Below are positions 8,225 to 59,622 of a stretch of 64,000 bases of DNA, one piece after another. The notes beneath the pieces are model-generated. The model did no database searches and had not been told where the DNA came from. It was given only the letters and a program-made list of their open reading frames with translations. A program made the translations under genes and the position numbers. Source of the DNA: Diphasiastrum complanatum (lineage: Eukaryota > Streptophyta > Lycopodiopsida > Lycopodiales > Lycopodiaceae); NCBI GenBank assembly GCA_029204225.1, contig CM055105.1:52255047-52319046 (forward strand), read 5' to 3'. Every line of letters starts with the position of its first letter. Position 1 is the first letter of the stretch.

Positions 8225-8577
8225 TCATTTTTTCAATTGAGGACACTCGTTCACTGTGCGATTTCTTGTACAAATAGAACACCAGACATTTTCCCTGGTA
8301 GGAAAAGTCTTTGCAAACTTCTCAGGTTCCTTGTTCGCTTCTCCGTGGAAATTTTCCAATGCTTTGATCTTCTCATCAAATTGCAAATGCAACTTTTCCA
8401 TCTGTTTCTGCTGGGTCTTCCCAAGTTTCTCGAACTCATTGAGCATCATTTCTGCAGTAGCAAAGGCATTCGTTGATGCAATAGTGGTGGATGTCGTAGT
8501 AGTCTACCCTGCTGTATAAGGCAACATACTAACATTCGGCTCATCATCTGAATCTTCATCCTCCTCCCGAATTGGCA
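8225..8577 (-). pseudogene. gypsy1 gag N-terminal remnant
   Basis: An acidic tract (IREEDEDSDDEPNVSMLPYT) near 8577-8515 is followed by a TAG, then an open stretch 8225-8449 with a likely coiled-coil (NEFEKLGKTQQKQMEKLHLQ) and CSICTRNRTVNEC, a cysteine pair that begins the metal-binding region. A TGA separates this from the 935-codon frame without changing phase. Upstream of about 8577 the sequence switches to copia1 RNase H, so the gag start and gypsy1 5' LTR are missing. Confidence 0.85.
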
Positions 8578-34802: not shown

Positions 34803-35494
34803 TTAAGGTTCAGGCCATTTCATAACTGCTCTCTGGGACATAGTCCTTCCTTTAGATTTATTTATGTACATATCTTTATCTTCGATGTATCGTTGAATAA
34901 CCTTGTCATTGCCGCTTCCATTAGATATTTCTTCACATAAAATGGTTATCTTCATGAATTGAGTAGGTTCATTGGGGTTTTGCATCAAAAAGTGATAATT
35001 CATAACAAATATGCATGTAATAGGGTATTACATTGGAATTGACCGATAACATGGTTGCCAAGATCGGCAAAACATGTCCTAAAGAAGGTTCTCTTATAAA
35101 CAGATGCTACAACAATAAAATCTTTAGGCATTCCCTTCCTAGGTATGACATTTTTTAACAACTCAGCATTTATTCGGACAAAGGAACCATCCAAATAGAG
35201 AATCTGCATTGCTGTAAGTGCATGGCCGATAAAGTTGCCAAAATTTATCACTAAATAGGTAACGAACTTTGCATGATCTTTATGAGCTCTTTTATCTTTA
35301 AGGTAGCAGACAACATTCTCATAATGAAGCTGGTAACCAGCTTCCCAATTGACATACAAATCCCACAGTCTGGATAAGAGACATCCATATCTTGCGACAA
35401 GTTCTCTTTGTCGAACCTTGCAAAATTTGGCTCTAATTCCTTGTGCCAATACAAATCAAATTGACAACGTCTTCTCCAATAATCAATTTCTCCT
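34803..35494 (-). pseudogene. Unrecognised decayed coding region
   Basis: Minus-strand pieces are continuous across frame changes: CQFDLYWHKELEPNFARFDK and YPDCGICMSIGKLV (35500-35330), RELVARYGCLLSRLWDLYVN and LTAMQILYLDGSFVRINAEL with VIPRKGMPKDFIVVASVYKR (35449-35000), then FLMQNPNEPTQFMKITILCE and NDKVIQRYIEDKDMYI (35003-34803). Residue use looks like real protein rather than a shadow, and a retroelement gag-like region is possible. I do not recognise the family. It is cut by gypsy3 at about 35495. Confidence 0.4.
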
Positions 35495-35504
35495 GGTAAT
35501 ACTC

Positions 35505-40563: not shown

Positions 40564-41177
40564 TGTCAAAATATTGGAAAAATCTATCTAATGTTGTGAG
40601 TAGGGGTCCTAAAAATGCCAAAGATGAATTGAGCTCTTTTGGCTTAGTAAAGACCCATCTTAGAATAGAATATTCAAGGTAAGTAGAAGTAGAAACTCGA
40701 GCTACCATAGGAATTTCCATTTGTACTTTACATGCCACATTTAATGCATGAAAAGACTAGATGGCACAATTAGACATAGTGAGGTGGCTTGAATAAGTCT
40801 AGATAGCTTGAGAGGTGGATCCACAATTCCAATTCAACTCAAAGTAGGAGGAGAGTCCATGGATCTATATATATGTGATGTACTCTCATTGAGAAGATGA
40901 TGAAATTTGTGTGTAATGCAAATTTGGAGACAAGCTCTTTGTGCCCTCTCTCTCTACACGAGTTTTATACTTTCTATTTTCTCTCTCTAGCCGAGTTGAG
41001 ACATTTATGATGCTTAGTCTTATGTTTTGTTGACAGATCTTGCTTGTAACACACTAATATTTCTTGTATGATCAGCTTTCCTATTGACAACCAATGCTAG
41101 TCTAATCTTTATGGTATTATTGGGCTTAGGAGATCAAAAGTACATGTGTAGGGCGTCCCACACATGTGAATTCAGCA
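40564..41177 (+). mobile_element. copia3 5' LTR (614 bp)
   Basis: It starts TGTCAAAATATTGG and ends GAATTCAGCA next to the primer site. A TATA-like CTATATATATGTG lies at about 40863-40875. The start was chosen by comparison with the copia2 LTR and because gypsy2 homology ends at the preceding base. Confidence 0.85.
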
Positions 41178-41190
41178 TGGTATCAGAGCC
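41178..41190 (+). other. copia3 primer-binding site
   Basis: TGGTATCAGAGCC, an exact match to the initiator-Met tRNA site of plant copia elements, adjacent to the LTR end. Confidence 0.96.
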
Positions 41191-41933
41191 TACCTAAGTT
41201 TTAGAAGCAAATCTAATCAAAAAATTTGCAGATTTGATCAAATTTCAAGCTAGGAATTGTCTAGATTGTACTTTCTAGCTAGTTTGCAGTTTTTTGATGA
41301 TTTAGAGCTTCAAACCACTTTGAATAGTCCAGATCAGGTACTGTACAGAATTTCAGGTGCTGGCACGTGTGAAATCCGCCCATTTTCAGTTTGGTGGTTA
41401 TCTCTCACCTTACATCCAAATTTCATGCAAATTAGCCCACTAGAAAGCTAGAAATGTGTAGAATTTGATGCAATTTGAATCATGACAGTTGGATAAGCCA
41501 ATCAAAAGCTATAAGCTTTTGGAGAGTCATAGGCAGGGTGCCTAGACCTGTGGCAAATCGTGTGTACATGTCATTTATTGCCTGAATGATAATAAAAATC
41601 ATGCAGAAGTTGAACAATCTCATCTATATGTGATTTAGACAAAATTTATAGGTTCTAGGCAAATCGTTTCATAGAAATAGATTGTATTTGAGTCAATTTG
41701 ACATTTTTGGAATATTTCACACGTGTGAAATTTAGAGAACCATAACTTTTTCCATACTTCATCTTTTTTGATGATTCAAATCTTGTTTTAGAGAGATTGT
41801 CAAGCTAGTGAGATCTATCTCACAGTTATTTGCTAAGTCTTACATAGGATTTGGTTTTTTGCCCTTGATTGGTTCCTATAGTGAGAAGATAAGCAACTTT
41901 TTCATCCATCTTTTTTGATTCCCATCAATCTTT

Positions 41934-42383
41934 ATGACTTCAATGGGTGTCTTTCTATTAGAAGCTAGTGAAAGATTGTCAACCTCCAAATACTCAATTT
42001 GGAAGGTTAGAATGGAATCTGTCTCAATACTACAAGATGTGATGGATATTGTACTTGACATTGAAGAAGAACCACAAATTCCTCAAGAAATTCCAAAGTA
42101 CAAAAAGAGAGCTAGGATGGCTCTGCATTATATTAAGATGAATGTCTCGAATAACATCTTAAGAGAAATTGGTGCTTGTACTAATGCCAAAGATGCTTGG
42201 GATACTCTCAAGTCCATCTATGAGGCAAAGAATACTTCTAGACTTCTAGCACTAAGAAACCAAATTTTTCAAAGTGTACAGAGAAGTGATGAATGTGCTT
42301 TAGCTTATGTAATGAGAGTTAAAGACCTCCATAGAGAATTGTCATGCATAGGAGACTCCATCAACCAAAATGAACTTGTTTAG
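41934..42383 (+). pseudogene. Truncated copia Gag, array unit 1
   Basis: 149 codons starting MTSMGVFLLEASERLSTSKY, the N-terminal UBN2-type copia Gag core; it stops at TAG formed by GTT-TAG-GG of the first telomeric junction. This unit's leader (TTTTTGGAATATTTCACACG) is joined to the true element leader upstream. Variants: SNN, NAKD, LALRNQIF, CALAYVM, NQNELV. Confidence 0.9.
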
Positions 42384-42645
42384 GGTTTAGGGTTTAGGGT
42401 TGAGTCAGTTTGACATTTTTGGAGTATTTCACACGTGTGAAATTCAGAGAACCATAACTTTTGCCATACTTCATCTTTTTTGATAATTCAAATCTTGTTT
42501 TAGAGAGATTCTCAAGCTAGTGAGATCTATCTCACAATTTTTTTGCTTTGTCTTACATAGAATTTGGTTTTTTGCCCTTGATTGGTTCCTATAGTGCGAA
42601 GATAGCAACTTTTTCATCCATCTTTTTTGATTCCCATCAATCTTT

Positions 42646-43095
42646 ATGACTTCAATGGGTGTCTTTCTATTAGAAGCTAGTGAAAGATTGTCAACCTGCA
42701 AATACTCAATTTGGAAGGTTAGAATGGAATCTGTCTCAATACTACAAGATGTGATGGATATTGTACTTGACATTGAAGAAGAACCACAAATTCCTCAAGA
42801 ATTTTCAAAGTACAAAAAGAGAGCTAGGATGGCTCTGCATTATATTAAGATGAATGTCTCAAATGACATCTTAAGAGAAATTGGTGCTTGTACTAATGCC
42901 AAAGATGCTTGGGATACTCTCAAGTCCATCTATGAGGCAAAGAATACTTCTAGACTTCTAACACTAAGAAACCAAAATTTTCAAAGTGTACAGAGAAGTG
43001 ATGAATGTGCTTCAGCTTATGTAATGAGAGTTAAAGACCTCCATAGAGAATTGTCATGCATAGGAGACTCCATCAACCAAAATGAACTTGTTTAG
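42646..43095 (+). pseudogene. Truncated copia Gag, array unit 2
   Basis: 149 codons. Variants: STCKYS, QEFSKYK, SND, NAKD, LTLRNQNF, NQNELV. The following junction has TTTAGAG as its first telomeric repeat, but the in-frame stop TAG is kept. Confidence 0.9.
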
Positions 43096-43367
43096 AGTTT
43101 AGGGTTTAGGGTTGAGTCAGTTTGACATTTTTGGAGTACTTCACATGTGTGAAATTCAGAGAACCATAACTTTTGCCATACTTCATCTTTTTTGATGATT
43201 CAAATCTTGTTTTAGAGAGATTGTCAAGCTAGTGAGATCTATCTCACAATTTTTTTGCTTTGTCTTACATAGAATTTGGTTTTTTGCCCTTGATTGGTTC
43301 CTATTGTGAGAAGATAAGCAACTTTTTCATCCATCTTTTTTTATTCCCATCAATCTTTATGACTTGA

Positions 43368-43808
43368 ATGGGTGTCTTTCTATTAGAAGCTAGTGAAAGA
43401 TTGTTAACCTCCAAATACTCAATTTGGAAGGTTAGAATGGAATCTGTCTCAATACTACAAGATGTGATGGATATTGTACTTGACATTGAAGAAGAACCAC
43501 AAATTCCTCAAGAAATTCCAAAGTACAAAAAGAGAGCTAGGATGGCTCTGCATTATATTAAGATGTATGTCTCAAATGACATCTTAAGAGAAATTGGTGC
43601 TTGTACTAATGTCAAAGATGCTTGGGATACTCTCAAGTCCATCTATGAGGCAAAGAATACTTCTAGACTTCTAACACTAAGAAACCAAATGTTTCAAAGT
43701 GTACAGAGAAGTGATGAATGTGCTTCAGCTTATGTAATGAGAGTTAAAGACCTCCATAGAGAATTGTCATGCATAGGAGACTCCATCAACCGAAATGAAC
43801 CTGTTTAG
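43368..43808 (+). pseudogene. Truncated copia Gag, array unit 3 (start shifted)
   Basis: The usual ATG (43359) is followed by ACT-TGA here, so only the internal ATG at 43368 gives the frame (146 codons). Variants: LLTSKYS, YVSND, NVKD, LTLRNQMF, NRNEPV (type B). Its palindrome is CACATGTGTG rather than CACACGTGTG. Confidence 0.9.
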
Positions 43809-44071
43809 GGTTTAGGGTTTAGGGTTGAGTCAGTTTGACATTTTTGGAGTATTTCACACGTGTGAAATTCAGAGAACCATAACTTTTGCCATACTTCATC
43901 TTTTTTAATGATTCAAATCTTGTTTTAGAGAGATTGTCAAGCTAGTGAGATCTATCTCACAATTTTTTTGCTTTGTCTTATATAGGATTTGGTTTTTTGC
44001 CCTTGATTGGTTCCTATAGTGAGAAGATAAGCAACTTTTTCATCCATCTTTTTTGATTCCCATCAATCTTT

Positions 44072-44521
44072 ATGACTTCAATGGGTGTCTTTCTATTAGA
44101 AGCTAGTGAAAGATTGTCAACCTCCAAATACTCAATTTGGAAGGTTAGAATGGAATCTGTCTCAATACTACAAGATGTGATGGATATTGTACTTGACATT
44201 GAAGAAGAACCACAAATTCCTCAAGAAATTCCAAAGTACAAAAAGAGAGCTAGGATGGCTCTGCATTATATTAAGATGAATGTCTCGAATAACATCTTAA
44301 GAGAAATTGGTGCTTGTACTAATGCCCAAGATGCTTGGGATACTCTCAAGTCCATCTATGAGGCAAAGAATACTTCTAGACTTCTAGCACTAAGAAACCA
44401 AATTTTTCAAAGTGTACAGAGAAGTGATGAATGTGCTTCAGCTTATGTAACGAGAGTTAAAGACCTCCATAGAGAATTGTCATGCATAGGAGAGTCCATC
44501 AACCAAAATGAACGTGTTTAG
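44072..44521 (+). pseudogene. Truncated copia Gag, array unit 4
   Basis: 149 codons, type A variants: NVSNN, NAQD, LALRNQIF, SAYVT, GESINQNERV. Confidence 0.9.
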
Positions 44522-44784
44522 GGTTTAGGGTTTAGGGTTGAGTCAGTTAGACATTTTTGGAGTATTTCACACGTGTGAAATTCAGAGAACCATAACTTTT
44601 GCCATACTTCATCTTTTTTGATGATTCAAATCTTGTTTTAGAGAGATTGTCAAGCTAGTGAGATCTATCTCACAATTTTTTTGCTTTGTCTTACATAGAA
44701 TTTGGTTTTTTGCCCTTGATTGGTTCCTATAGTGAGAAGATAAGCAACTTTTTCATCCATCTTTTTTGATTCCCATCAATCTTT

Positions 44785-45234
44785 ATGACTTCAATGGGTG
44801 TCTTTCTATTAGAAGCTAGTGAAAGATTGTCAACCTGCAAATACTCAATTTGGAAGGTTAGAATGGAATCTGTCTCAATACTACAAGATGTGATGGATAT
44901 TGTACTTGACATTGAAGAAGAACCACAAATTCCTCAAGAAATTCCAAAGTACAAAAAGAGAGCTAGGATGGCTCTGCATTATATTAAGATGTATGTCTCA
45001 AATGACATCTTAAGAGAAATTGGTGCTTGTACTAATGTCAAAGATGCTTGGGATACTCTCAAGTCCATCTATGAGGCAAAGAATACTTCTAGACTTCTAA
45101 CACTAAGAAACCAAATGTTTCAAAGTGTACAGAGAAGTGATGAATGTGCTTCAGCTTATGTAATGAGAGTTAAAGACCTCCATAGAGAATTGTCATGCAT
45201 AGGAGACTCCATCAACCGAAATGAACCTGTTTAG
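44785..45234 (+). pseudogene. Truncated copia Gag, array unit 5
   Basis: 149 codons, type B variants: YVSND, NVKD, LTLRNQMF, SAYVM, NRNEPV; also STCKYS as in unit 2. Confidence 0.9.
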
Positions 45235-45497
45235 GGTTTAGGGTTTAGGGTTGAGTCAGTTTGACATTTTTGGAGTATTTCACACGTGTGAAATTCAGAG
45301 AACCATAACTTTTGCCATACTTCATCTTTTTTGATGATTCAAATCTTGTTTTAGAGAGATTGTCAAGCTAGTGAGATCTATCTCACAATTTTTTTGCTTT
45401 GTCTTATATAGGATTTGGTTTTTTGCCCTTGATTGGTTCCTATAGTGAGAAGATAAGCAACTTTTTCATCCATCTTTTTTGATTCCCATCAATCTTT

Positions 45498-45947
45498 ATG
45501 ACTTCAATGGGTGTCTTTCTATTAGAAGCTAGTGAAAGATTGTCAACCTCCAAATACTCAATTTGGAAGGTTAGAATGGAATCTGTCTCAATACTACAAG
45601 ATGTGATGGATATTGTACTTGACATTGAAGAAGAACCACAAATTCCTCAAGAAATTCCAAAGTACAAAAAGAGAGCTAGGATGGCTCTGCATTATATTAA
45701 GATGAATGTCTCGAATAACATCTTAAGAGAAATTGGTGCTTGTACTAATGCCCAAGATGCTTGGGATACTCTCAAGTCCATCTATGAGGCAAAGAATACT
45801 TCTAGACTTCTAGCACTAAGAAACCAAATTTTTCAAAGTGTACAGAGAAGTGATGAATGTGCTTCAGCTTATGTAACGAGAGTTAAAGACCTCCATAGAG
45901 AATTGTCATGCATAGGAGACTCCATCAACCAAAATGAACGTGTTTAG
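45498..45947 (+). pseudogene. Truncated copia Gag, array unit 6
   Basis: 149 codons, type A: NVSNN, NAQD, LALRNQIF, SAYVT, NQNERV. Nearly the same as unit 4. Confidence 0.9.
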
Positions 45948-46210
45948 GGTTTAGGGTTTAGGGTTGAGTCAGTTAGACATTTTTGGAGTATTTCACACGT
46001 GTGAAATTCAGAGAACCATAACTTTTGCCATACTTCATCTTTTTTGATGATTCAAATCTTGTTTTAGAGAGATTGTCAAGCTAGTGAGATCTATCTCACA
46101 ATTTTTTTGCTTTGTCTTATATAGAATTTGGTTTTTTGCCCTTGATTGGTTCCTATAGTGAGAAGATAAGCAACTTTTTCATCCATCTTTTTTGATTCCC
46201 ATCAATCTTT

Positions 46211-46660
46211 ATGACTTCAATGGGTGTCTTTCTATTAGAAGCTAGTGAAAGATTGTCAACCTCCAAATACTCAATTTGGAAGGTTAGAATGGAATCTGTC
46301 TCAATACTACAAGATGTGATGGATATTGTACTTGACATTGAAGAAGAACCACAAATTCCTCAAGAAATTCCAAAGTACAAAAAGAGAGCTAGGATGGCTC
46401 TGCATTATATTAAGATGTATGTCTCAAATGACATCTTAAGAGAAATTGGTGCTTGTACTAATGTCAAAGATGCTTGGGATACTCTCAAGTCCATCTATGA
46501 GGCAAAGAATACTTCTAGACTTCTAACACTAAGAAACCAAATGTTTCAAAGTGTACAGAGAAGTGATGAATGTGCTTCAGCTTATGTAATGAGAGTTAAA
46601 GACCTCCATAGAGAATTGTCATGCATAGGAGACTCCATCAACCGAAATGAACCTGTTTAG
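46211..46660 (+). pseudogene. Truncated copia Gag, array unit 7
   Basis: 149 codons, type B: YVSND, NVKD, LTLRNQMF, NRNEPV. Nearly the same as unit 5 apart from STSKYS. Confidence 0.9.
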
Positions 46661-46923
46661 GGTTTAGGGTTTAGGGTTGAGTCAGTTTGACATTTTTGGA
46701 GTATTTCACACGTGTGAAATTCAGAGAACCATAACTTTTGCCATACTTCATCTTTTTTGATGATTCAAATCTTGTTTTAGAGAGATTGTCAAGCTAGTGA
46801 GATCTATCTCACAATTTTTTTGCTTTGTCTTATATAGGATTTGGTTTTTTGCCCTTGATTGGTTCCTATAGTGAGAAGATAAGCAACTTTTTCATCCATC
46901 TTTTTTGATTCCCATCAATCTTT

Positions 46924-47376
46924 ATGACTTCAATGGGTGTCTTTCTATTAGAAGCTAGTGAAAGATTGTCAACCTCCAAATACTCAATTTGGAAGGTTAG
47001 AATGGAATCTGTCTCAATACTACAAGATGTGATGGATATTGTACTTGACATTGAAGAAGAACCACAAATTCCTCAAGAATTTCCAAAGTACAAAAAGAAA
47101 GCTAGGATGGCTCTGCATTATATTAAGATGAATGTTTCAAATGACATCTTAAGAGAAATTGGTGCTTGTACTAATGCCAAAGATGATGCTTGGGATACTC
47201 TCAAGTCCATCTATGAGGCAAAGAATACTTCTAGACTTCTAACACTAAGAAACCAAATGTTTCAAAGTGTACAGAGAAGTGATGAATGTGCTTCAGCTTA
47301 TGTAATGAGAGTTAAAGACCTCCATAGAGAATTGTCATGCATAGGAGACTCCATCAACCGAAATGAACCTGTTTAG
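46924..47376 (+). pseudogene. Truncated copia Gag, array unit 8 (one extra codon)
   Basis: 150 codons because of an in-frame GAT insertion giving NAKDDAWD; this also explains the 716-bp spacing to unit 9. Other variants: QEFPKYKKKA, NVSND, NRNEPV. Confidence 0.9.
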
Positions 47377-47639
47377 GGTTTAGGGTTTAGGGTTGAGTCA
47401 GTTAGACATTTTTGGAGTATTTCACACGTGTGAAATTCAGAGAACCATAACTTTTGCCATACTTCATCTTTTTTGTTGATTCAAATCTTGTTTTAGAGAG
47501 ATTGTCAAGCTAGTGAGATCTATCTCACAATTTTTTTGCTTTGTCTTACATAGGATTTGGTTTTTTGCCCTTGATTGGTTCCTATAGTGAGAAGATAAGC
47601 AACTTTTTCATCCATCTTTTTTGATTCCCATCAATCTTT

Positions 47640-48089
47640 ATGACTTCAATGGGTGTCTTTCTATTAGAAGCTAGTGAAAGATTGTCAACCTCCAAATACT
47701 CAATTTGGAAGGTTAGAATGGAATCTGTCTCAATACTACAAGATGTGATGGATATTGTACTTGACATTGAAGAAGAACCACAAATTCCTCAAGAAATTCC
47801 AAAGTACAAAAAGAGAGCTAGGATGGCTCTGCATTATATTAAGATGAATGTCTCGAATAACATCTTAAGAGAAATTGGTGCTTGTACTAATGTCCAAGAT
47901 GCTTGGGATACTCTCAAGTCCATCTATGAGGCAAAGAATACTTCTAGACTTCTAGCACTAAGAAACCAAATTTTTCAAAGTGTACAGAGAAGTGATGAAT
48001 GTGCTTCAGCTTATGTAACGAGAGTTAAAGACCTCCATAGAGAATTGTCATGCATAGGAGACTCCATCAACCAAAATGAACGTGTTTAG
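47640..48089 (+). pseudogene. Truncated copia Gag, array unit 9
   Basis: 149 codons, type A with NVQD: NVSNN, LALRNQIF, SAYVT, NQNERV. The following junction has one altered telomeric repeat (TTTAGGA). Confidence 0.9.
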
Positions 48090-48352
48090 GGTTTAGGATT
48101 TAGGGTTGAGTCAGTTAGACATTTTTGGAGTATTTCACACGTGTGAAATTCAGAGAACCATAACTTTTGTCATACTTCATCTTTTTTGATGATTCAAATC
48201 TTGTTTTATAGAGATTGTCAAGCTAGTGAGATCTATCTCACAATTTTTTTGCTTTGTCTTACATAGAATTTGGTTTTTTGCCCTTGATTGGTTCCTATAG
48301 TGAGAAGATAAGCAACTTTTTCATCCATCTTTTTTGATTCCCATCAATCTTT

Positions 48353-48802
48353 ATGACTTCAATGGGTGTCTTTCTATTAGAAGCTAGTGAAAGATTGTCA
48401 ACCTCCAAATACTCAATTTGGAAGGTTAGAATGGAATCTGTCTCAATACTACAAGATGTGATGGATATTGTACTTGACATTGAAAAAGAACCACAAATTC
48501 ATCAAGAATTTCCAAAGTACAAAAAGAGAGCTAGGATGGCTCTGCATTATATTAAGATGAATGTCTCCAATGACATCTTAAGGGAAATTGGTGCTTGTAC
48601 TAATGCCAAAGATGCTTGGGATACTCTCAAGTCCATCTATGAGGCAAAGAATACTTCTAGACTTCTAACACTAAGAAACCAAATTTCTCAAAGTGTACAG
48701 AGAAGTGATGAATGTGCTTCAGCTTATGTAATGAGAGTTAAAGCCCTCCATAGAGAATTGTCATGCATAGGAGACTCCATCAACCAAAATGAACCTGTTT
48801 AG
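48353..48802 (+). pseudogene. Truncated copia Gag, array unit 10
   Basis: 149 codons. The most diverged unit: IEKEPQIHQEFPKYK, NVSND, LTLRNQIS, RVKALHRE, NQNEPV. Confidence 0.9.
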
Positions 48803-49065
48803 GGTTTAGGGTTTAGGGTTGAGTCATATTGACATTTTTGGAGTATTTCACACGTGTGAAATTCAGAGAACCATAACTTTTGCCATACTTCATCTTTTTT
48901 GATGATTCAAATCTTGTTTTAGAGAGATTGTCAAGCTAGTGAGATCTATCTCACAATTTTTTTGCTTTGTCTTATATAGGATCTGGTTTTTTGCCCTTGA
49001 TTGGTTCCTATAGTGAGAAGATAAGCAACTTTCTCATCCATCTTTTTTGATTCCCATCAATCTTT

Positions 49066-49515
49066 ATGACTTCAATGGGTGTCTTTCTATTAGAAGCTAG
49101 TGAAAGATTGTCAACCTCCAAATACTCAATTTGGAAGGTTAGAATGGAATCTGTCTCAATACTAACAGATGTGATGGATATTGTACTTGACATTGAAGAA
49201 GAACCACAAATTCCTCAAGAAATTCCAAAGTACAAAAAGAGAGCTAGGATGGCTCTGCATTATATTAAGATGAATGTCTCGAATAACATCTTAAGAGAAA
49301 TTGGTGCTTGTACTAATGCCAAAGATGTTTGGGACACTCTCAAGTCCATCTATGAGGCAAAGAATACTTCTAGACTTCTAGCACTAAGAAACCAAATTTT
49401 TCAAAGTGTACAGAGAAGTGATGAATGTGCTTCAGCTTATGTAATGAGAGTTAAAGACCTCCATAGAGAATTGTCATGCATAGGAGACTCCATCAACCAA
49501 AATGAACTTGTTTAG
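49066..49515 (+). pseudogene. Truncated copia Gag, array unit 11
   Basis: 149 codons. Variants: SILTDVMD, NVSNN, NAKDVWD, LALRNQIF, SAYVM, NQNELV. Confidence 0.9.
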
Positions 49516-49778
49516 GGTTTAGGGTTTAGGGTTGAGTCAGTTTGACATTTTTGGAGTATTTCACACGTGTGAAATTCAGAGAACCATAACTTTTGCCATA
49601 CTTCATCTTTTTTGATGATTCAAATCTTGTTTTAGAGAGATTGTCAAGCTAGTGAGATCTATCTCACAATTTTTTTGCTTTGTCTTACATAGAATTTGGT
49701 TTTTTGCCCTTGATTGGTTCCTATAGTGAGAAGATAGGCAACTTTTTCATCCATCTTTTTTTATTCCCATCAATCTTT

Positions 49779-50228
49779 ATGACTTCAATGGGTGTCTTTC
49801 TATTAGAAGCTAGTGAAAGATTGTCAACCTCCAAATACTCAATTTGGAAGGTTAGAATGGAATCTGTCTCAATACTACAAGATGTGATGGATATTGTACT
49901 TGACATTGAAGAAGAACCACAAATTCCTCAAGAAATTCCAAAGTACAAAAAGAGAGCTAGGATGGCTCTGCATTATATTAAGATGAATGTCTCGAATAAC
50001 ATCTTAAGAGAAATTGGTGCTTGTACTAATGCCCAAGATGCTTGGGATACTCTCAAGTCCATCTATGAGGCAAAGAATACTTCTAGACTTCTAGCACTAA
50101 GAAACCAAATTTTTCAAAGTGTACAGAGAAGTGATGAATGTGCTTCAGCTTATGTAATGAGAGTTAAAGACCTCCATAGAGAATTGTCATGCATAGGAGA
50201 CTCCATCAACCAAAATGAACCTGTTTAG
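49779..50228 (+). pseudogene. Truncated copia Gag, array unit 12
   Basis: 149 codons. Mosaic of type A in the middle (NVSNN, NAQD, LALRNQIF) with SAYVM and NQNEPV at the end. The frame is also open upstream to 49680, but the MTSMGV start shared with all units is preferred. Confidence 0.88.
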
Positions 50229-50491
50229 GGTTTAGGGTTTAGGGTTGAGTCAGTTTGACATTTTTGGAGTATTTCACACGTGTGAAATTCAGAGAACCAT
50301 AACTTTTGCCATACTTCATCTTTTTTGATGATTCAAATCTTGTTTTAGAGAGATTGTCAAGCTAGTGAGATCTATCTCACAATTTTTTTGCTTTGTCTTA
50401 CATAGAATTTGGTTTTTTGCCCTTGTTTGGTTCCTATAGTGAGAAGATAAGCAACTTTTTCATCCATCTTTTTTGATTCCCATCAATCTTT

Positions 50492-50941
50492 ATGACTTCA
50501 ATGGGTGTCTTTCTATTAGAAGCTAGTGAAAGATTGTCAACCTCCAAATACTCAATTTGGAAAGTTAGAATGGAATCTGTCTCAATACTACAAGATGTGA
50601 TGGATATTGTACTTGACATTGAAGAAGAACCACAAATTCCTCAAGAAATTCCAAAGTACAAAAAGAGAGCTAGAATGGCTCTGCATTATATTAAGATGAA
50701 TGTCTCAAATGACATCTTAAGGGAAATTGGTGCTTGTACTAATGCCAAAGATGCTTGGGATACTCTCAAGTCCATCTATGAGGCAAAGAATACTTCTAGA
50801 CTTCTAACACTAAGAAACCAAATGTTTCAAAATGTACAGGGAAGTGATGAATGTGCTTCAGCTTATGTAATGAGAGTTAAAGACCTCCATAGAGAATTGT
50901 CATGCATAGGAGACTCCATCAACCAAAATGAACCTGTTTAG
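50492..50941 (+). pseudogene. Truncated copia Gag, array unit 13
   Basis: 149 codons. Variants: NVSND, NAKD, LTLRNQMFQNVQGSDE, NQNEPV. It is followed by the last telomeric junction (near 50937-50957). Confidence 0.9.
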
Positions 50942-51204
50942 GGTTTAGGGTTTAGGGTTGAGTCAGTTTGACATTTTTGGAGTATTTCACACGTGTGAAA
51001 TTCAGAGAACCATAACTTTTGCCATACTTCATCTTTTTTGATGATTCAAATCTTGTTTTAGAGAGATTGTCAAGCTAGTGAGATCTATCTCACAATTTTT
51101 TTGCTTTGTCTTATATAGGATTTGGTTTTTTGCCCTTGATTGGTTTCTATAGTGAGAAGATAAGCAACTTTTTCATCCATCTTTTTTTATTCCCATCAAT
51201 CTTT

Positions 51205-51762
51205 ATGACTTCAATGGGTGTCTTTCTATTAGAAGCTAGTGAAAGATTGTCAACCTCCAAATACTCAATTTGGAAGGTTAGAATGGAATCTGTCTCAATA
51301 CTACAAGATGTGATGGATATTGTACTTGACATTGAAGAAGAACCACAAATTCCTCAAGAAATTCCAAAGTACAAAAAGAGAGCTAGGATGGCTCTGCATT
51401 ATATTAAGACGAATGTCTCAAATGACATCTTAAGAGAAATTGGTGCTTGTACTAATGCCAAAGATGCTTGGGATACTCTCAAGTCCATCTATGAGGCAAA
51501 GAATACTTCTAGACTTCTAACACTAAGAAACCAAATTTTTCAAAGTGTACAGAGAAGTGATGAATGTGCTTCAGCTTATGTAATGAGAGTTAAAGACCTC
51601 CATAGAGAATCGTCATGCATAGGAGACTCCATCAATCAAAATGAACTTGTTCAAGTCATACTTAATGGGTTAAAAGAGGAATATGACAACCTTGTTCAGA
51701 GTTATGCCATTAAGGAGGAGCTACCAAGTTTGGAAGCACTCCAAAGTGTGCTCATTTTTTAA
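51205..51762 (+). pseudogene. copia3 Gag, array unit 14, reading on into native gag
   Basis: The frame starts at MTSMGV (51205) and passes the point where the other units stop, continuing VQVILNGLKEEYDNLVQSYA and EELPSLEALQSVLIF before TAA at 51760-51762. Relatives continue with EESR, so this stop is a mutation in an otherwise normal Gag. It shows what every array unit lacks: the C-terminal half of the Gag core, the zinc knuckle and beyond. Variants include KTNVSND and HRESSC. Confidence 0.92.
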
Positions 51763-51786
51763 GAATCAAGACAAGAGTATAAACTC

Positions 51787-52767
51787 TTGAAAATGGAGAG
51801 ATTGTCTCTCAACATTGATGGTAAATCTCTCTTTACCAAAGACAAGCACAAGACAAGAAGTAAGAATCAACACCAATCCTCTTCAAGCAAGAACAATCTT
51901 ATTTCCAAGGAGAAAGGAGAAGAGGATGAGTCCTCTCAAGCTTCCACATCCAAGAAGAAGAAGAAAAACATCAAGTGTTTCTTTTGTGGCAAGAAGGGGC
52001 ATTATGCCACCGATTGCTTCAAGAAGAAGAGTCAATTCAAGCAAACCAACATTTCTAATGAAGAGAAGGAAGATGCTCATGCAAGTGATGGAGAGGGATC
52101 TCTTATGGTCTTGAGTTTTTCTTCATCACCTTTCAAGAAGGATGGTTCGTGGTATATCGACAGTGGAGCTTCTTCACATATGTGTAGCTCCAAGCATTCT
52201 TTTTCATCCATGTCACCTTATGAAGGAGCCAAGAAGTCCATCTACACAGCAAATGATCATGAGTGTGCTATTGAAGGCATAGGGACTATTCCCTTAAAGC
52301 TTTCTTTATCAAAAGTTCTTTCTCTGTCTAAAGTACTTTTTGCTCCTAAGTTAACAAAAAATCTTATTAGTGTTAGGCAATTCTTTGATAGTGGACTAGA
52401 TGTGAATTTCAATGTTGATACATGTACAATCAAGAAGCATGATGAAATCCTTGCATTTGGGTCTAGATATGGTGGAATCTACAAGCTTGATCCCAAAGAG
52501 TATGCTAACTCTTGTGATGGTGCTTTTGCTTCTCATATTTCTTTGGAGGAACTCAAGAGACAAGAGCTGCAAGCACTCCCCGCCCTCCGATCACAACCAG
52601 AGTGGTGTCAACAGCTGTTTGAGCGTGACCCTGTGGCTATCAGGGCGTACATGACAAGTCCACAACAACTCCGAGTGAATGCACATTTCTTGCCATGCAC
52701 ACGTAGAACAAAATGGGTGGAATGTGGCACTCCACTGGACAAGATCACACTCAATAATCTGAATTGA
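51787..52767 (+). pseudogene. copia3 Gag end, CCHC knuckle and protease fused to unknown sequence
   Basis: The frame begins MKMERLSLNIDGKSLFTKDK, has a Lys/Ser linker, the zinc knuckle CFFCGKKGHYATDC (about residue 65), protease SWYIDSGASSHMCSS with intact D-S-G-A (about residue 122), VLFAPKLTKNLISVRQFFDS and ISLEEL. At about 52551 (residue 255) copia homology stops and about 70 codons of unrelated sequence follow in frame (PEWCQQLFERDPVAIRAYMT, VECGTPLDKITLNN) to the stop at 52765-52767. Confidence 0.9.
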
Positions 52768-54379: not shown

Positions 54380-54685
54380 CGAGTAGTGCTTTCCATAGTA
54401 GATTCTTGAGTGACTTGAAGGAAGAGTGTGTGGTAGAAACAAGTATTTTTTCTAAAGAAATAGGATTGAAACATAATCTTACTATTCTGCCACCAGAACC
54501 ATGATACTAGTAGAATAATGACCACTTATAAATAGTTAACTTACAAAGAAAAGTGTAGGGACGCATGTGTTATTGCTAAATTGACAAAATAGAACAAATC
54601 TTCTACATATCTCTCTCAGCTAGCTGCGACAACAATCTTCAAATCTTTTATTTCAAACTAGCAGATATTTGTGTTTTACTTCAAA

Positions 54686-55169
54686 CTAGCAACACCCGAC
54701 TATGTAGCATGGGTCCCAACATTCATTGAAGAAAGATGGACAACCTCTACATAAAGTGCAAGTGGGAAGATCACATGCAAAAAATTATTACTTGAAAAAT
54801 AAGAAGATTCATAGATGAGTAACTCACACAATGGATGATGATCATGAGATAAAAGCTAATACATTGGAAATGAAAAACAAGAAGTAATTGGCATGCAATC
54901 ACTAGAACTTGTTATAATGACTAAAAAACAACAAGTACTTTTTTGAAAATCGTTAACATACAATATGTTTGATGAATTTCAAACTATACTAATGTATACT
55001 GGTAAAACGTTTTCAAGAGTTATGTGAATTATTTACAAAAAAAAGAGCTTTTCTTGACTCCTAGAATGGAGCCCATTAGATCATGTTGCCATGTTGTTGC
55101 CAATTGGAGATAAATGCTAAAGATCATGAAGAAAAGAGCCATGGACCATATTTTGGTGCATACTGTCAT
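54686..55169 (-). pseudogene. Left-arm copy of the cysteine-rich peptide gene, splice site damaged
   Basis: Exon 1 (55169-55037, 133 bases, same length and phase as the right copy) starts at ATG and encodes a hydrophobic leader (SMALFFMIFSIYLQLATTW). The donor is GTAAAT rather than GTAAGT. At the acceptor, the right copy's TTTTTCAG is TTTTTCAAG here and the start of exon 2 carries extra bases, so splicing at that AG reaches a stop after six residues. The cysteine-bearing part of exon 2 (to the TAG at 54688-54686) is still readable and keeps seven or so of the cysteines and the RGCP and CWDPC motifs, with the CC pair of CWDPCC changed to CY. A downstream AG could give a shorter in-frame product, which is untested. 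I call it a probable pseudogene. Confidence 0.75.
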
Positions 55170-55192
55170 TTTTTGTTTCTTTGATTTGATGA

Positions 55193-55193
55193 A

Positions 55194-55226
<33 letters not shown>

Positions 55227-55228
55227 TT
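55193..55228. repeat. (GA)n microsatellite upstream of the left peptide gene copy
   Basis: About 36 bases of GA with one GGA interruption. On the gene's strand this is a CT tract shortly before the ATG, matching the longer CT/CA tract before the right-arm gene. Confidence 0.93.
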
Positions 55229-55456
55229 TGTCATTCATATATTAGGTGTACTAGATATTCTTGTTTGCTTCATTTGCACAATTGACAAGGCTTATAATCC
55301 AAAATAAGATTCATTTTGTACATTCTCCTTTTGTCCATTGATAGCTACTCTTGTGAACTATACCTTTTTGTTTCTTCCTCATGCCTTCGTTATATATTGA
55401 GCATCTTTTGATGCGGCCCTTTTTTATTTACCTTCATCTTGTTTTCACATCAAATA

Positions 55457-56110
55457 TGTGAAAATTGTCAACATTTCCTAGCTAGTTTGAGGCCTAAATT
55501 GGCTAAAATTGTAAATAGTTTTGGTTCTGGAGTTTCACACGTGTGAACCAGGCCACAATGTTTTTATTTACTGTATTTTTTCAGTATGATGAAGTGTCAA
55601 ACTTCATACCCTTCAAAATGAGACCATTTTGATGTATTTTGGTCATATAAGCCATTTTTAGCTATTTTTCCTATATAGGGAATATCTAGGGTCAAGTACC
55701 TTCTAGAGAGAGGAGAGAGAGTCATCTTCCTCATCCATAGATAGTAGGGAAGTCGTGGAGAACAGGTGGAGAAACCTTTTGTATGCTTCATTGAGATCAA
55801 TAGATCATTGTCATTGTTTCTTCCTCCATTGAGAGCATTGTTGTGTGTATTGCCTTCAAGCTATTGTGTATGATCTTAGGTGCTTTCCAAAAGTGGTAGG
55901 CTGATGTATTATGGACTGTATAATGCTATTTTGGGCCGCACTTGATGTTTATGGAAGTTTCCATTTGTGATAAATGCTTTTTGATCAAGTTCTTTGCATT
56001 CTAGGTAGCATAGAATGTGTTGCCAATTCCTAGCTTATGTAGTTTGGAGTGCAAGCATTCAAGCCAATGATCTTGGAGTTTAGATCCACTTAGGATCTGT
56101 ATTTTTCACA
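55457..56110. mobile_element. Solo LTR (654 bp) with 5-bp target duplication AAATA
   Basis: TGTGAAAATTGTC...TGTATTTTTCACA, with inverted ends TGTGAAAA/TTTTTCACA, is flanked on both sides by AAATA (55452-55456 and 56111-56115). The other arm of the inverted duplication has the empty site (CATCAAATGCGAATTTGAGG in reverse complement), with one copy of the pentamer (AAATG). A TATA-like CCTATATAGGG lies near 55672 and a GTTTCACACGTGTGAACC palindrome at 55532. Only one LTR is present, so it arose by LTR-LTR recombination. The insertion postdates the inverted duplication or reached only one arm. Confidence 0.93.
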
Positions 56111-56589
56111 AAATACAAATTTGAGGTCACCACAAAAATCAGGAATGAAAAGTAGTCATTCTTGTATATGGTCTAGTTTTCATATTGCAATTTTTCAAAA
56201 TGTGTCTTCAAGAGCTTGTAATCACGTAATATTATTTTCATTATTTTTGAAATTTTATCCAAATTTCTGTAACATTTGGAATACTATAGCAGATTGAATT
56301 GAGCATACTATTAGTTTGAAAGACATGTATATGTATAACTTCTTTTGTAAAAGTAGAATCCTCAAAAGACTTCATGAAAAAAAAAAATCTTTCAATTTGA
56401 ATTTTATATTTTTAATTTAGTTCATTCATAGTCCTAAATAGCTTACTAAATAGTAAGCTCCAATATCTTGGACGAAAGTTTAAGTCTCAAATTTCCTATC
56501 TTTAGAGACCAAATTCATACCAAAAAGTATGAATCTTAAAGTTTCTTTTTCTCACAAAGGAGCTCAACTTAAAGAACTTAAACAAAAGT

Positions 56590-57240
56590 TTAGGGTTTAG
56601 AATTGAGGGTTAAGAGTTCAGCGTTCAAGATTGCTCAGGGTTGAAGGGTCTAGGTTCTAGGGTCTCAGGTCACAGGTTTGGGTCTGGGGTCTCGAGTCTC
56701 GGATTTTGGCTCTCGGGTCTCGGATCTTGGGTCCAATTTTAGGGTCTCAGATTTAGGGTCTAGAGTTTAGGGTTTCAGATTGAAAGATTAGGATTTACTT
56801 TTGAAGGATTAGGATTGAGGGTTTATGGTTTAGGGATTAGGGTCTATGGTTTAGGGTTTAGGAATTAGGATTTAGGAATTAGGGTTGAGGATTTATGGGG
56901 GAGGGTTGAAGGTTGAGAGTTGAGGGTTGAGGGTTGAGGGTTGAGGGTTTAGTGGTGAGGGTTGAGGGTTGAGGGTTTAATGATCCTCAACCCTCAACCC
57001 TCAACCCTCAACCTAATTCCTAAATTTCAATTCCTAAATCCTAAAACCTAGATCCTAATCCCTAAACCCTAAATCCTAATCCCTCAACCCTAATCTTTCT
57101 AACCTAAACTCTAAATCCTAAACCCTAAACCCTAAAACCGAACTCTAGACTTGAGACTCGAGACACCATATCCAAGAGCCAAGACCCGAGACTCAAGATG
57201 AACGTTGAATTCTCAACCCTAAATCCTAAATCCTAAACTT
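56590..57240. repeat. Head-to-head degenerate telomere-like repeats at the palindrome axis
   Basis: From 56590 to about 56981 the plus strand is built of TTTAGGG, TTGAGGG, TCTAGGG, ATTAGGG and TCTCGGG-like heptamers, purest next to the axis (TTGAGGGTTGAGGGTTGAGG). From about 56985 to 57240 the complementary CCCTCAA and CCCTAAA units follow. The arrangement G-strand then C-strand is that of two telomeric tracts joined end to end. The repeats are impure, so they may be a telomere-like satellite rather than true telomeric DNA. Confidence 0.85.
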
Positions 57241-58041
57241 TTGATTAGAAGTTGTTTAAGTTGAGCCCCTTTGTGAGAAAAAGAAACTTTAAGATTTCTT
57301 TTTCTTGGTACAATTTGGTCTCTAAGCATAGGAAAATCGAGATTTAAATTCTCGTCCAAGATATTGGAACTTACTATTTAGTTAGCTATTTAGGACTATG
57401 AATGAACTAAATTAAAGAATATAAAATTCAAATTGAAGAAAAAGAAAATTCTTCATAAAGGCTTTTGAGGATTTTACTTTTACAAAAGAAGTTATACATA
57501 TACATGTCTTTCAAACTAATAGTCTGCTCGATTCAATCTGCTATAGTATTCCAAATGTTGAGGAATTTGAATAAAATTTCAAAAATAATGAAAATAACAT
57601 TAAGTGCTCATAAGCTCTTGAAGACACATTTTGAAAAATTGCAATATGTAAACTAGACCATATACAAGAATGACTATTTTTCATTCTAGATTTTTGTGGT
57701 GACCTCAAATTCGCATTTGATGTGAAAACAAGATGAAAAGAAGATAAATCAAGAAGGGCCACGTCAAAAGATGCTCAATACATAATGAAGGCACGAGGAA
57801 GAAACAGAAAGGCATAATTCACAAGAGTAGCTATCAATGGACAAAAGGAGAAGGTGCAAAATGAATCTTATTTTGGATTATAAGCCTTGTCATTTGTGCA
57901 AATGAAGGGGATGAGGATATCTAGCACACCTGATATTTGAATGACAAAGAGGCCTTATTTGGATCATATATAGTAATGCGGGACTATTGAAACATTCAAG
58001 TCAAATACTAGAGAGATAGATCATGGTGCACCTTATGGAGT

Positions 58042-58159
<118 letters not shown>

Positions 58160-58378
58160 ACTAGAGAAAAAAACAAGCAATGACATTATACACCAAAAAG
58201 TCAAGAATAGTTGGGTCTATTAATCTTGTTGACCTTGGAAAGGTCATAGTAAAGGAATCATTTTTCATCAAATTTTATCTTGTCAAAAGCATAACAAGCA
58301 TCCCAAGCTAACAAAAGCCAAGACAAAGGGTCGTCCCTTGAAAGAAATGTGGGAGGAGTCTTTTCCATCAAACCATTT

Positions 58379-58396
58379 CATATATATACATATAAA
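58379..58396 (+). promoter_or_regulatory. TATA-like box upstream of the peptide gene
   Basis: TATATATACATATAAAGG lies about 170 bases before the ATG and just upstream of the CT/CA tract, a normal position for a core promoter if that tract is in the 5' untranslated region. Confidence 0.5.
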
Positions 58397-58414
58397 GGCA
58401 TCACATCCTTCCTT

Positions 58415-58531
<117 letters not shown>

Positions 58532-58567
58532 CACACACACACATTCATCAAATCAAAGAAACAAAAA

Positions 58568-59049
58568 ATGGCAGCATGCACCAAAATATGGTCCATGGCT
58601 CTTTTCTTCATGATCTTTAGCATTTATCTCCAATTGGCAGCCACATGGCAACATGATATAATGGGTTCCATTCCAGGGGTCAAGAAAAGGACTTTTTTTT
58701 GTAAGTAATTCACATAACTCTTGACAATTTTTTACTAGTATACATTGGTTTAGTTCGAAATTCATCAAACATATTGTATGTTAATGATTTTAAAAAAAAA
58801 ACTGGTTGTTTTTTAGTCATTATAGCATGTTTTGGTGATTGCATGCCAGTTCGTTCTTGTTTTTCATTTCCAATGTATTTACTTTTAGCTCATGAGTATC
58901 ATCCATTGTGTGAGTGACTCATCTATGAATCTTCTTATTTTTCAGGTGGTATGATTGCGTGTGATCTTTCCGCTTGTAATTCGTGTAGGGGGTGTCCATA
59001 TTTCTTCGATGGATGCTGGGACCCATGCTGCTTAGCCGAGTGCTGCTAG
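58568..59049 (+). CDS. Spliced gene for a small secreted cysteine-rich peptide (78 aa)
   Basis: Exon 1 is 58568-58700 and exon 2 58946-59049, with a 245-bp phase-1 intron bounded by GTAAGT and TTATTTTTCAG. Residues 1-27 form a hydrophobic secretion signal (WSMALFFMIFSIYLQLAATW). After a short basic linker (GVKKRTFF) the exon-2 part is packed with ten cysteines in about 34 residues, spaced C-x4-C-x4-C-x2-C-x2-C-x6-C-x3-CC-x3-CC, the first cysteine being split by the intron. The stop TAG is followed within 15 bases by AATAAA. Such architecture (signal in exon 1, Cys-rich domain in exon 2) is typical of plant defence or signalling peptides, but this spacing matches no family I can name and no activity is proposed. 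The left-arm copy preserves the same exon lengths and most cysteines, which supports a real gene. Without the intron, translation would stop two codons after the exon (CK-stop). Confidence 0.8.
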
Positions 59050-59214
59050 TTTGAAATAAAAGATTTGAAGATTGTTGTCGCAACTAGCTGAGAGAGACAT
59101 GTAGAAGATTTGTTCTATATTGTCAATTCAGCAATAATGCATGCATCCTACACTTTTCTTTGTAAGTTGATTATCAATAAGCGGTTATTATTCTACTACT
59201 ATCGTAATTATGGT

Positions 59215-59520
59215 TGGTAGCTTATTTGGTTTGGTGTGGAATGAATGAGCCTAGAAGCCTCAATATGTTCATAGGTATAATTTGCTTCAGCCTAGTAATG
59301 ATGTTGTGATTACAACATATGCGCTTTAGATCCGATCATAAAAAATAGCTCAGATAATATATTCTTGTTTTCATATTTGAGCTGCTAATTCCCCAAGGTC
59401 AAGGTTCATGTTCTGGTCTACATATGCTCTTTGCTCTCAAAAGATTCATTTCGTATGCATATCTGTAGATCTTGGAGGAAAGCATACAAGGCTTTTCTGA
59501 CATTATTAACAAGAGTAGTA
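59215..59520. other. Right-arm-specific 0.3-kb segment
   Basis: This stretch interrupts homology with the left arm (between the parts matching 54510 and 54483). It has no ORF and no clear terminal repeats; it could be an insertion here or a deletion in the left arm. Confidence 0.7.
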
Positions 59521-59622
59521 AGATTATGTTTCAATCCTATTTCTTTAGAAAAAATACTTGTTGCTACCACACACTCTTCCTTTAAGTCACTCAAGATTCT
59601 GCTATGGAAAGCACTACTCTAC

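Follow-up and report, generated by a model that had tools for sequence, protein, structure and literature searches.

Among the closest described systems is TALT1, a subtelomeric array at the right end of chromosome V in the C. elegans strains CB4856 and DL226, where five or six copies of a unit joined to telomeric repeat are found, and where copy number has changed as a unit was duplicated along with its telomeric repeat (PMC9066243; TALT1 also appears in the excerpted passages of PMC4595603). The locus described here is in a window of 64,000 nucleotides of the lycopod Diphasiastrum complanatum (assembly GCA_029204225.1, contig CM055105.1; C14:52255047-52319046), and consists of 14 head-to-tail units, with a period of 712-716 bp, each made of the leader and N-terminal gag of a Ty1/copia retrotransposon and parted from the next by a short tract of the plant telomere repeat TTTAGGG. 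As in TALT1, non-telomeric units are split by short telomeric repeats in the same orientation (at 13/13 junctions here, and at 18/18 in a second version of the array on C3), and the C14 array shares the subtelomeric position, while the block holding the C3 version ends in N. The TALT1 unit is, however, a gene promoter with a first exon, whereas ours is a retrotransposon fragment, born inside the element and in a plant; and use in telomere maintenance is reported for TALT, whereas the likeness that we would draw here is one of build.

Excerpts of PMC7367193 describe a further parallel in Magnaporthe, where retroelement-derived MoTeR units stand head to tail near chromosome ends with telomeric tracts between them; one MoTeR array has identical seams, and recombination expands and contracts such arrays. 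MoTeRs insert into telomeres, though, whereas our seam is between two internal copia breakpoints and is foreign to the element, and both edges of our array are native copia and not telomere repeats. TelKO of Naumovozyma castellii and Y′ of S. cerevisiae are also telomere-joined subtelomeric units in tandem, but are amplified at the chromosome ends of telomerase-negative cells, from another unit and in another kingdom (excerpts of PMC12408736 and PMC5354574). In plants, the Ogre-derived FabTR families of Lathyrus sativus are similar in that a satellite-like array expands inside a long terminal repeat (LTR) retrotransposon; these, in the excerpted text of PMC7004042, begin as short tandem arrays that lie downstream of gag-pol in Ogre elements (Ty3/gypsy) scattered through the genome, whereas here a single Ty1/copia copy, its leader and gag, and a telomeric seam are involved. 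Lastly, short interstitial telomeric sequences of the horse resemble the seam in being short telomeric inserts with in-register bases at the break, for which the authors favour telomerase acting in break repair, but are single-locus inserts and not seams amplified with a 713-bp unit (excerpts of PMC7215372). An initial annotation of this DNA, made from its letters alone, had stated that no satellite of this build was described, which, given TALT1, MoTeR and TelKO, is too strong. In the titles and abstract openings that our literature search covered (subscription papers being mostly outside it) no plant array in which telomeric seams join retroelement fragments was recognised; what appears to be new is the combination of a plant copia fragment, a seam probably left when a break inside the element was repaired, and a turnover of which two stages can be read.

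The array extends over window positions 41688-51651 on the forward strand, with unit starts recognised by TTGAGTCA (Table 1), so that the 14 units of the initial annotation are borne out in both starts and periods. Every one of the 13 inner junctions reads GAAC(T/C/G)TGTT-TAGGGTTTAGGGTTTAGGG-TTGAGTC, with the filler exact or carrying one substitution: (TTTAGGG)3 is perfect at 11 junctions, and junctions 2 and 9 have one substitution each, so that the claim of the same telomeric block at all junctions stands for its presence (13/13) but not for its letters (11/13). The exact 21-mer (TTTAGGG)3 occurs 11 times in the window and in none of 100 shuffles. The net filler is 19 nt long, and the stretch in telomeric register is 24 nt, including bases common to the native ends; the in-register overlaps at the seam, GTT on the gag side and TT on the leader side, are both short. 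Native leader precedes unit 1, and unit 14, as had been noted, runs on uninterrupted into native gag (GAACTTGTTCAAGTC).

Over both versions of the array, 31/31 fillers are three repeats long and 29/31 are perfect. This sameness of seam argues for one founder junction over new telomere additions, and most likely the seam was made once, with later copies derived from that junction by recombination inside the unit. Separate telomere addition at every junction was rejected on the same shared length. The filler is not more conserved than its surroundings on C14 (diversity 1.6%, versus 2.1% for the rest of the unit); on C3 the values are 0 and 1.8%. Units within the window diverge pairwise by 0.3-3.4%, and the small distances between units 4 and 6 and between units 5 and 7 suggest a recent two-unit duplication. 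Unit 1 alone keeps the native base at alignment column 9, because of which we read it as the original left edge of the array.

For comparison, 24 native copies of the element were fetched from 38 scored places (38 of 2,647 candidates of a DNA search). None of the 24 carries the filler, so the insert is absent from the ancestral-type site as at interstitial telomeres elsewhere; the gag breakpoint is uninterrupted in 24/24 and the leader breakpoint in 23/24, the remaining copy (L007) having its leader replaced by other DNA and being excluded from the tree and column counts, which leaves 23 natives. The telomeric block is thus foreign, as first proposed, and the natural TTTAGGG block which the initial annotation had wanted sought in native copies is not among these; that the block is native to the element was rejected. 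In the tree all 33 array units, edge units included, form one clade against the 23 natives (support 100/99), and in five alignment columns 33/33 units differ from 23/23 natives, with two further columns in which 33/33 units differ from 22 and 21 of the 23. Since even the edge units carry these array-private changes, the duplication most likely arose inside one already diverged copia copy and not in a circulating element. The unit is therefore of LTR-retrotransposon origin and tandemly expanded, like other retrotransposon-derived satellites, but the long arrays at many loci that mark a satellite are here two places with 14 and 19 units.

Those two places come from an assembly-wide search, suggested in the initial annotation, for the leader-side junction pattern (at most 3 mismatches), which matched 31 times (C14, 13; C3, 18) and gave no control match; the first DNA search listed neither array, so the array counts rest on this pattern. 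The C3 junctions, 18/18 of them seamed, span C3:81767614-81779778 and make up an array of 19 units. The C3 block (C3:81749164-81814163) matches C14 from window position 35503 to the end of the block, 1.8 kb before the terminal telomere tract of C14. The aligned flanks, 39,861 bases with the array left out, show 11 substitutions between the two (0.03%) and 12 gap openings. Of the substitutions, 5 lie in 6,178 bases of left flank and 6 in 33,683 bases of right flank; a count limited to the first 12,337 bases of the right flank likewise came to 6.

Flanks that are 0.03% apart yet enclose 14 and 19 units, in partly different order, indicate that the array itself has changed lately, which we take the units to show happened through multi-unit duplication or loss and through crossing-over within the unit. 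C3 units 14-19 correspond in order to C14 units 9-14, whereas C3 units 1-6 are nearest to C14 units 3, 4, 5, 4, 5 and 6; C3 units 10 and 12 differ by zero substitutions, and divergence is lower at even lags on C3 but not clearly so on C14. C3 unit 11 is a join of C14 units 9 and 10, in that order, which leaves 1 mismatch where the best single parent leaves 8; such a mosaic we regard as direct evidence of recombination within the unit. C3 unit 1 is array-type at column 9 and matches C14 unit 3; loss or conversion of the units that once stood first is therefore probable in the C3 version. The expansion by unequal exchange that was originally proposed is thus supported by a second version with another unit number and order and by a one-crossover mosaic.

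We think it likely that this is a young subtelomeric tandem array, born in situ within one truncated Ty1/copia copy by the filling of a break followed by unequal recombination. A double-strand break in gag would have left a 3′ end ...GTT, with three bases in telomere register; about three TTTAGGG repeats would then have been added, most simply by telomerase or else by copying of telomeric DNA or RNA, and the filled end would have met the leader of a sister or homologous copy (TTGAGTC), the two being joined where they share the bases TT. The product would be a single 694-bp tandem duplication with a 19-nt telomeric seam, which unequal recombination could amplify, with turnover favoured by the subtelomeric position and perhaps by fragility of the three-repeat tract. 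Telomeric filling of the gag break is favoured because of the in-register bases, as at the horse inserts. Fragility of the seam is a plausible driver of turnover since each seam has three repeats, and at least three interstitial telomere repeats are said, in the excerpts of PMC7367193, to suffice for stalling and breakage in Magnaporthe. Of the single break repaired with telomeric filler that was put forward in the initial annotation, the single founding junction is supported by the 100/99 clade, while entry of the filler at a break is something that we infer.

Several points weigh against this account. The same sequence would result whether telomerase added the repeats, a template was copied or a telomeric fragment was captured, and these routes are indistinguishable here; the 3-nt and 2-nt overlaps are short and possibly due to chance; and a one- or two-unit ancestor was not found. 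The best two-parent mosaics for C3 units 7, 10 and 13 leave 3-4 mismatches. The array is embedded in an element and not at the chromosome tip, and the placement of the C3 block is doubtful because it is exactly 65,000 bases flanked by runs of N; the block is perhaps a contig that was cut and placed by scaffolding, and may represent a further chromosome end or else the other haplotype.

Amplification via a circular intermediate is a rival that we judge rather unlikely. A gag-leader fragment would have formed an extrachromosomal circle with a telomeric seam, been copied by rolling circle, and recombined into the copia copy, bringing in many units in one step. Rolling-circle copying predicts seams that are the same throughout, and in Magnaporthe D-loop copying or, as the alternative, rolling-circle copying is held responsible for an array whose interstitial telomeres are identical (excerpts of PMC7367193); native sequence at both edges of our array would also fit homology-based integration of a circle. 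The 0.3-3.4% divergence of units and the traces of multi-unit duplication, however, make rolling-circle copying unneeded, and not the sole process, and the array-private substitutions of the edge units mean that any circle must derive from this same copy.

The position of the array in the chromosome bears on a different set of ideas. The C14 contig ends at 52,343,242 in 1,020 bases that are 95% TTTAGGG, and as this tract starts 35.5 kb beyond the array, the C14 locus is subtelomeric; the fillers are oriented as the terminal tract is, and no N occurs in the window or onward to the telomere. To the left, the window matches C16. Positions 35250-35504 are identical to C16:19182665-19182919, and eight sampled C16 pieces (about 5.7 kb of window 1-35504) give 1 mismatch and 7 gap openings, so that on these samples the left 35.5 kb of the window corresponds to C16:19182665-19218128 on the reverse strand. 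The C16 sequence diverges at 35504, where the C3-shared block begins. A piece of C16 that should lie 21.9 kb to the left of the window gave no match at that place, so the C16-like stretch is 35.5 to 57 kb long. The C3 block has a 231-codon open frame across the 35503 point, which is broken there on C14; this frame gave no Pfam hit, but we tentatively read it as part of a gypsy element because reverse-transcriptase and RNase H hits adjoin it downstream. We think that the joint is real in the sequenced DNA, because an overlap assembler would hardly make a 2-bp join; in window 1-35504 we see either a misassembly or a chromosome end recently patched together from different chromosomes.

At such an end, one which bears signs of recent interchromosomal exchange, the array might be a plant counterpart of TALT or Y′, with a break-repair seam and a recombination-prone array that was spread to another chromosome, together with its chromosome end, by break-induced copying. 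We regard this as a doubtful extension; if true, such arrays could be a reservoir for the rebuilding of plant chromosome ends. That the array already serves as such a template, restoring ends by recombination in the manner of TALT, Y′ or TelKO, seems very unlikely to us. Its build and place are those of TALT1 in wild C. elegans (PMC9066243), and the end may have been copied, given the 11 substitutions between the C14 and C3 blocks outside the array and the C16-identical DNA that adjoins the C14 block at 35503; but the array is enclosed in a retroelement, with 35.5 kb between it and the telomere, and does not make up the terminus, its junction was found at two places only, and the C3 block could be the other haplotype.

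Retroelement reverse transcription can duplicate segments, and the array could on that ground have been formed by template switching and inserted ready-made. We hold this to be quite improbable: only one insertion is known, with the same flanks and truncation joint at both places, 33/33 units have the same private substitutions, and the assembly-wide junction search found no array-bearing copies at unrelated insertion sites. An assembly artefact is less probable again. Tandem repeats are hard to assemble and the C3 block, with its round length between N runs, is of doubtful placement, but both assembled versions share flanks and carry unit-specific variants, and the sequence is free of N from the window to the telomere; the exact copy number is unproved.

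The seam also has a consequence for coding, as its TAG terminates the gag frame. All 13 filler-bounded units of the window keep the gag start and have frames of 146 codons or, in one case, 147, and over both versions 30/31 have frames of 145-147 codons, the exception being a C3 unit with a frameshift; this closing of an intact frame, like the subtelomeric locus and the 19-unit version, had been missed in the initial annotation. Among the distinct derived substitutions in gag, 9 are synonymous (10.5 expected under random placement), 32 nonsynonymous (28.4 expected) and none a stop (2.1 expected); 10% of random substitution sets are stop-free, and the leader carries 31 substitutions in 256 sites versus 41 in 438 for gag, a similar rate. 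Selection on the gag frame was rejected, there being no sign of it in the counts against random placement; the kept frames fit neutral drift. That the unit is kept for a truncated gag protein, one that interferes with the intact element for example, is accordingly extremely unlikely; the kept frames and missing stops might recommend it, but the substitution counts are near the random expectation and the leader changes much as gag does.

How young the array is depends on which of two clocks is read. Units differ from one another on average by 2.1% on C14 and by 1.8% on C3, which at substitution rates of 7e-9 and 1.3e-8 per site per year would give about 0.7-1.5 million years, a rough guide only because of conversion between units. 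The 0.03% divergence of the flanks would place the parting of the two versions at about 11-20 thousand years (a shorter count of 0.06% gave 23-42 thousand years, which was halved for 0.03%), and this is the age of an allele if the versions are haplotypes. Here a satellite-like array is seen near its birth: one can still read the junction that founded it, the element that it came from, its native edges and two versions in the course of diverging. Whether break, telomeric fill, duplication and unequal exchange followed in this order is testable in relatives and in individuals. An arrangement known from worm, fungus and yeast is now seen in a plant, with a seam that formed within a retrotransposon.

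The host element has both the LTR and the copia-type gag domain of a Ty1/copia element, Pfam PF14223 (Retrotran_gag_2) being found in the gag frame at 43368, the one frame tested. Directly after the 5′ LTR, TGGTATCAGAGC starts at 41178, which we take to be the typical initiator-tRNA-Met primer site. The element is cut off at 52553, with pol beyond this point missing, and the truncation joint there has a full match at two places, on C14 and C3, among the 40 that were scored of 4,574 candidates. Coordinates are collected in Table 1.

Table 1. Features of the array, its host element and the left-hand junction, in window coordinates
Feature	Position	Strand	Remarks
Unit starts 1-7	41688, 42400, 43112, 43825, 44538, 45251, 45964	+	
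Unit starts 8-14	46677, 47393, 48106, 48819, 49532, 50245, 50958	+	
Unit 1	41688..42399	+	native-type base at alignment column 9, sole case among 33 units
Units 4-7	43825..46676	+	unit 4 vs 6, 0.3%; unit 5 vs 7, 0.3%
Unit 14	50958..51651	+	end is the native gag breakpoint
Telomeric filler 1	42381..42399	+	
Telomeric filler 2	43093..43111	+	one substitution
Telomeric filler 3	43806..43824	+	
Telomeric filler 4	44519..44537	+	
Telomeric filler 5	45232..45250	+	
Telomeric filler 6	45945..45963	+	
Telomeric filler 7	46658..46676	+	
Telomeric filler 8	47374..47392	+	
Telomeric filler 9	48087..48105	+	one substitution
Telomeric filler 10	48800..48818	+	
Telomeric filler 11	49513..49531	+	
Telomeric filler 12	50226..50244	+	
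Telomeric filler 13	50939..50957	+	
First intact gag frame	41943..42383	+	stop is the TAG of filler 1
Other gag frame starts	42655, 43368, 44081, 44794, 45507, 46220	+	
Remaining gag frame starts	46933, 47649, 48362, 49075, 49788, 50501	+	
5′ LTR	40564..41177	+	614 bp, TG...CA; BLAST to native loci, LTR pairs in two of them
Native leader upstream of array	41178..41687	+	alignment with native copies
Host-element remnant	51652..52553	+	rest of gag, zinc knuckle, Pol beta-barrel domain
C16-identical/C3-shared junction	35503..35504	+	2-bp overlap TC

Other repeats are found toward the same end of C14. A (TTTAGGG)5 tract in telomere orientation (L032, about 8464-8498) lies about 18.5 kb beyond the right end of the window and 4.7 kb short of the terminal tract, and is present in the C3 block too; a CCCTAAA-rich stretch of opposite orientation directly precedes the terminal tract, about 1.1 kb from the C14 end. 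Window 54381-59619 is a 5.2-kb inverted repeat with arms 84-95% alike in blocks, at whose centre (56801-57136) degenerate telomere-like DNA stands head to head, TTTAGGG-like and then CCCTAAA-like; it is either a foldback element or an old telomere-telomere fusion. Between 1.0 and 5.1 kb right of the window end two direct repeats of 703 bp lie 3.4 kb apart; they are 98.6% alike and probably the LTRs of another recent element in the block that C14 and C3 share.

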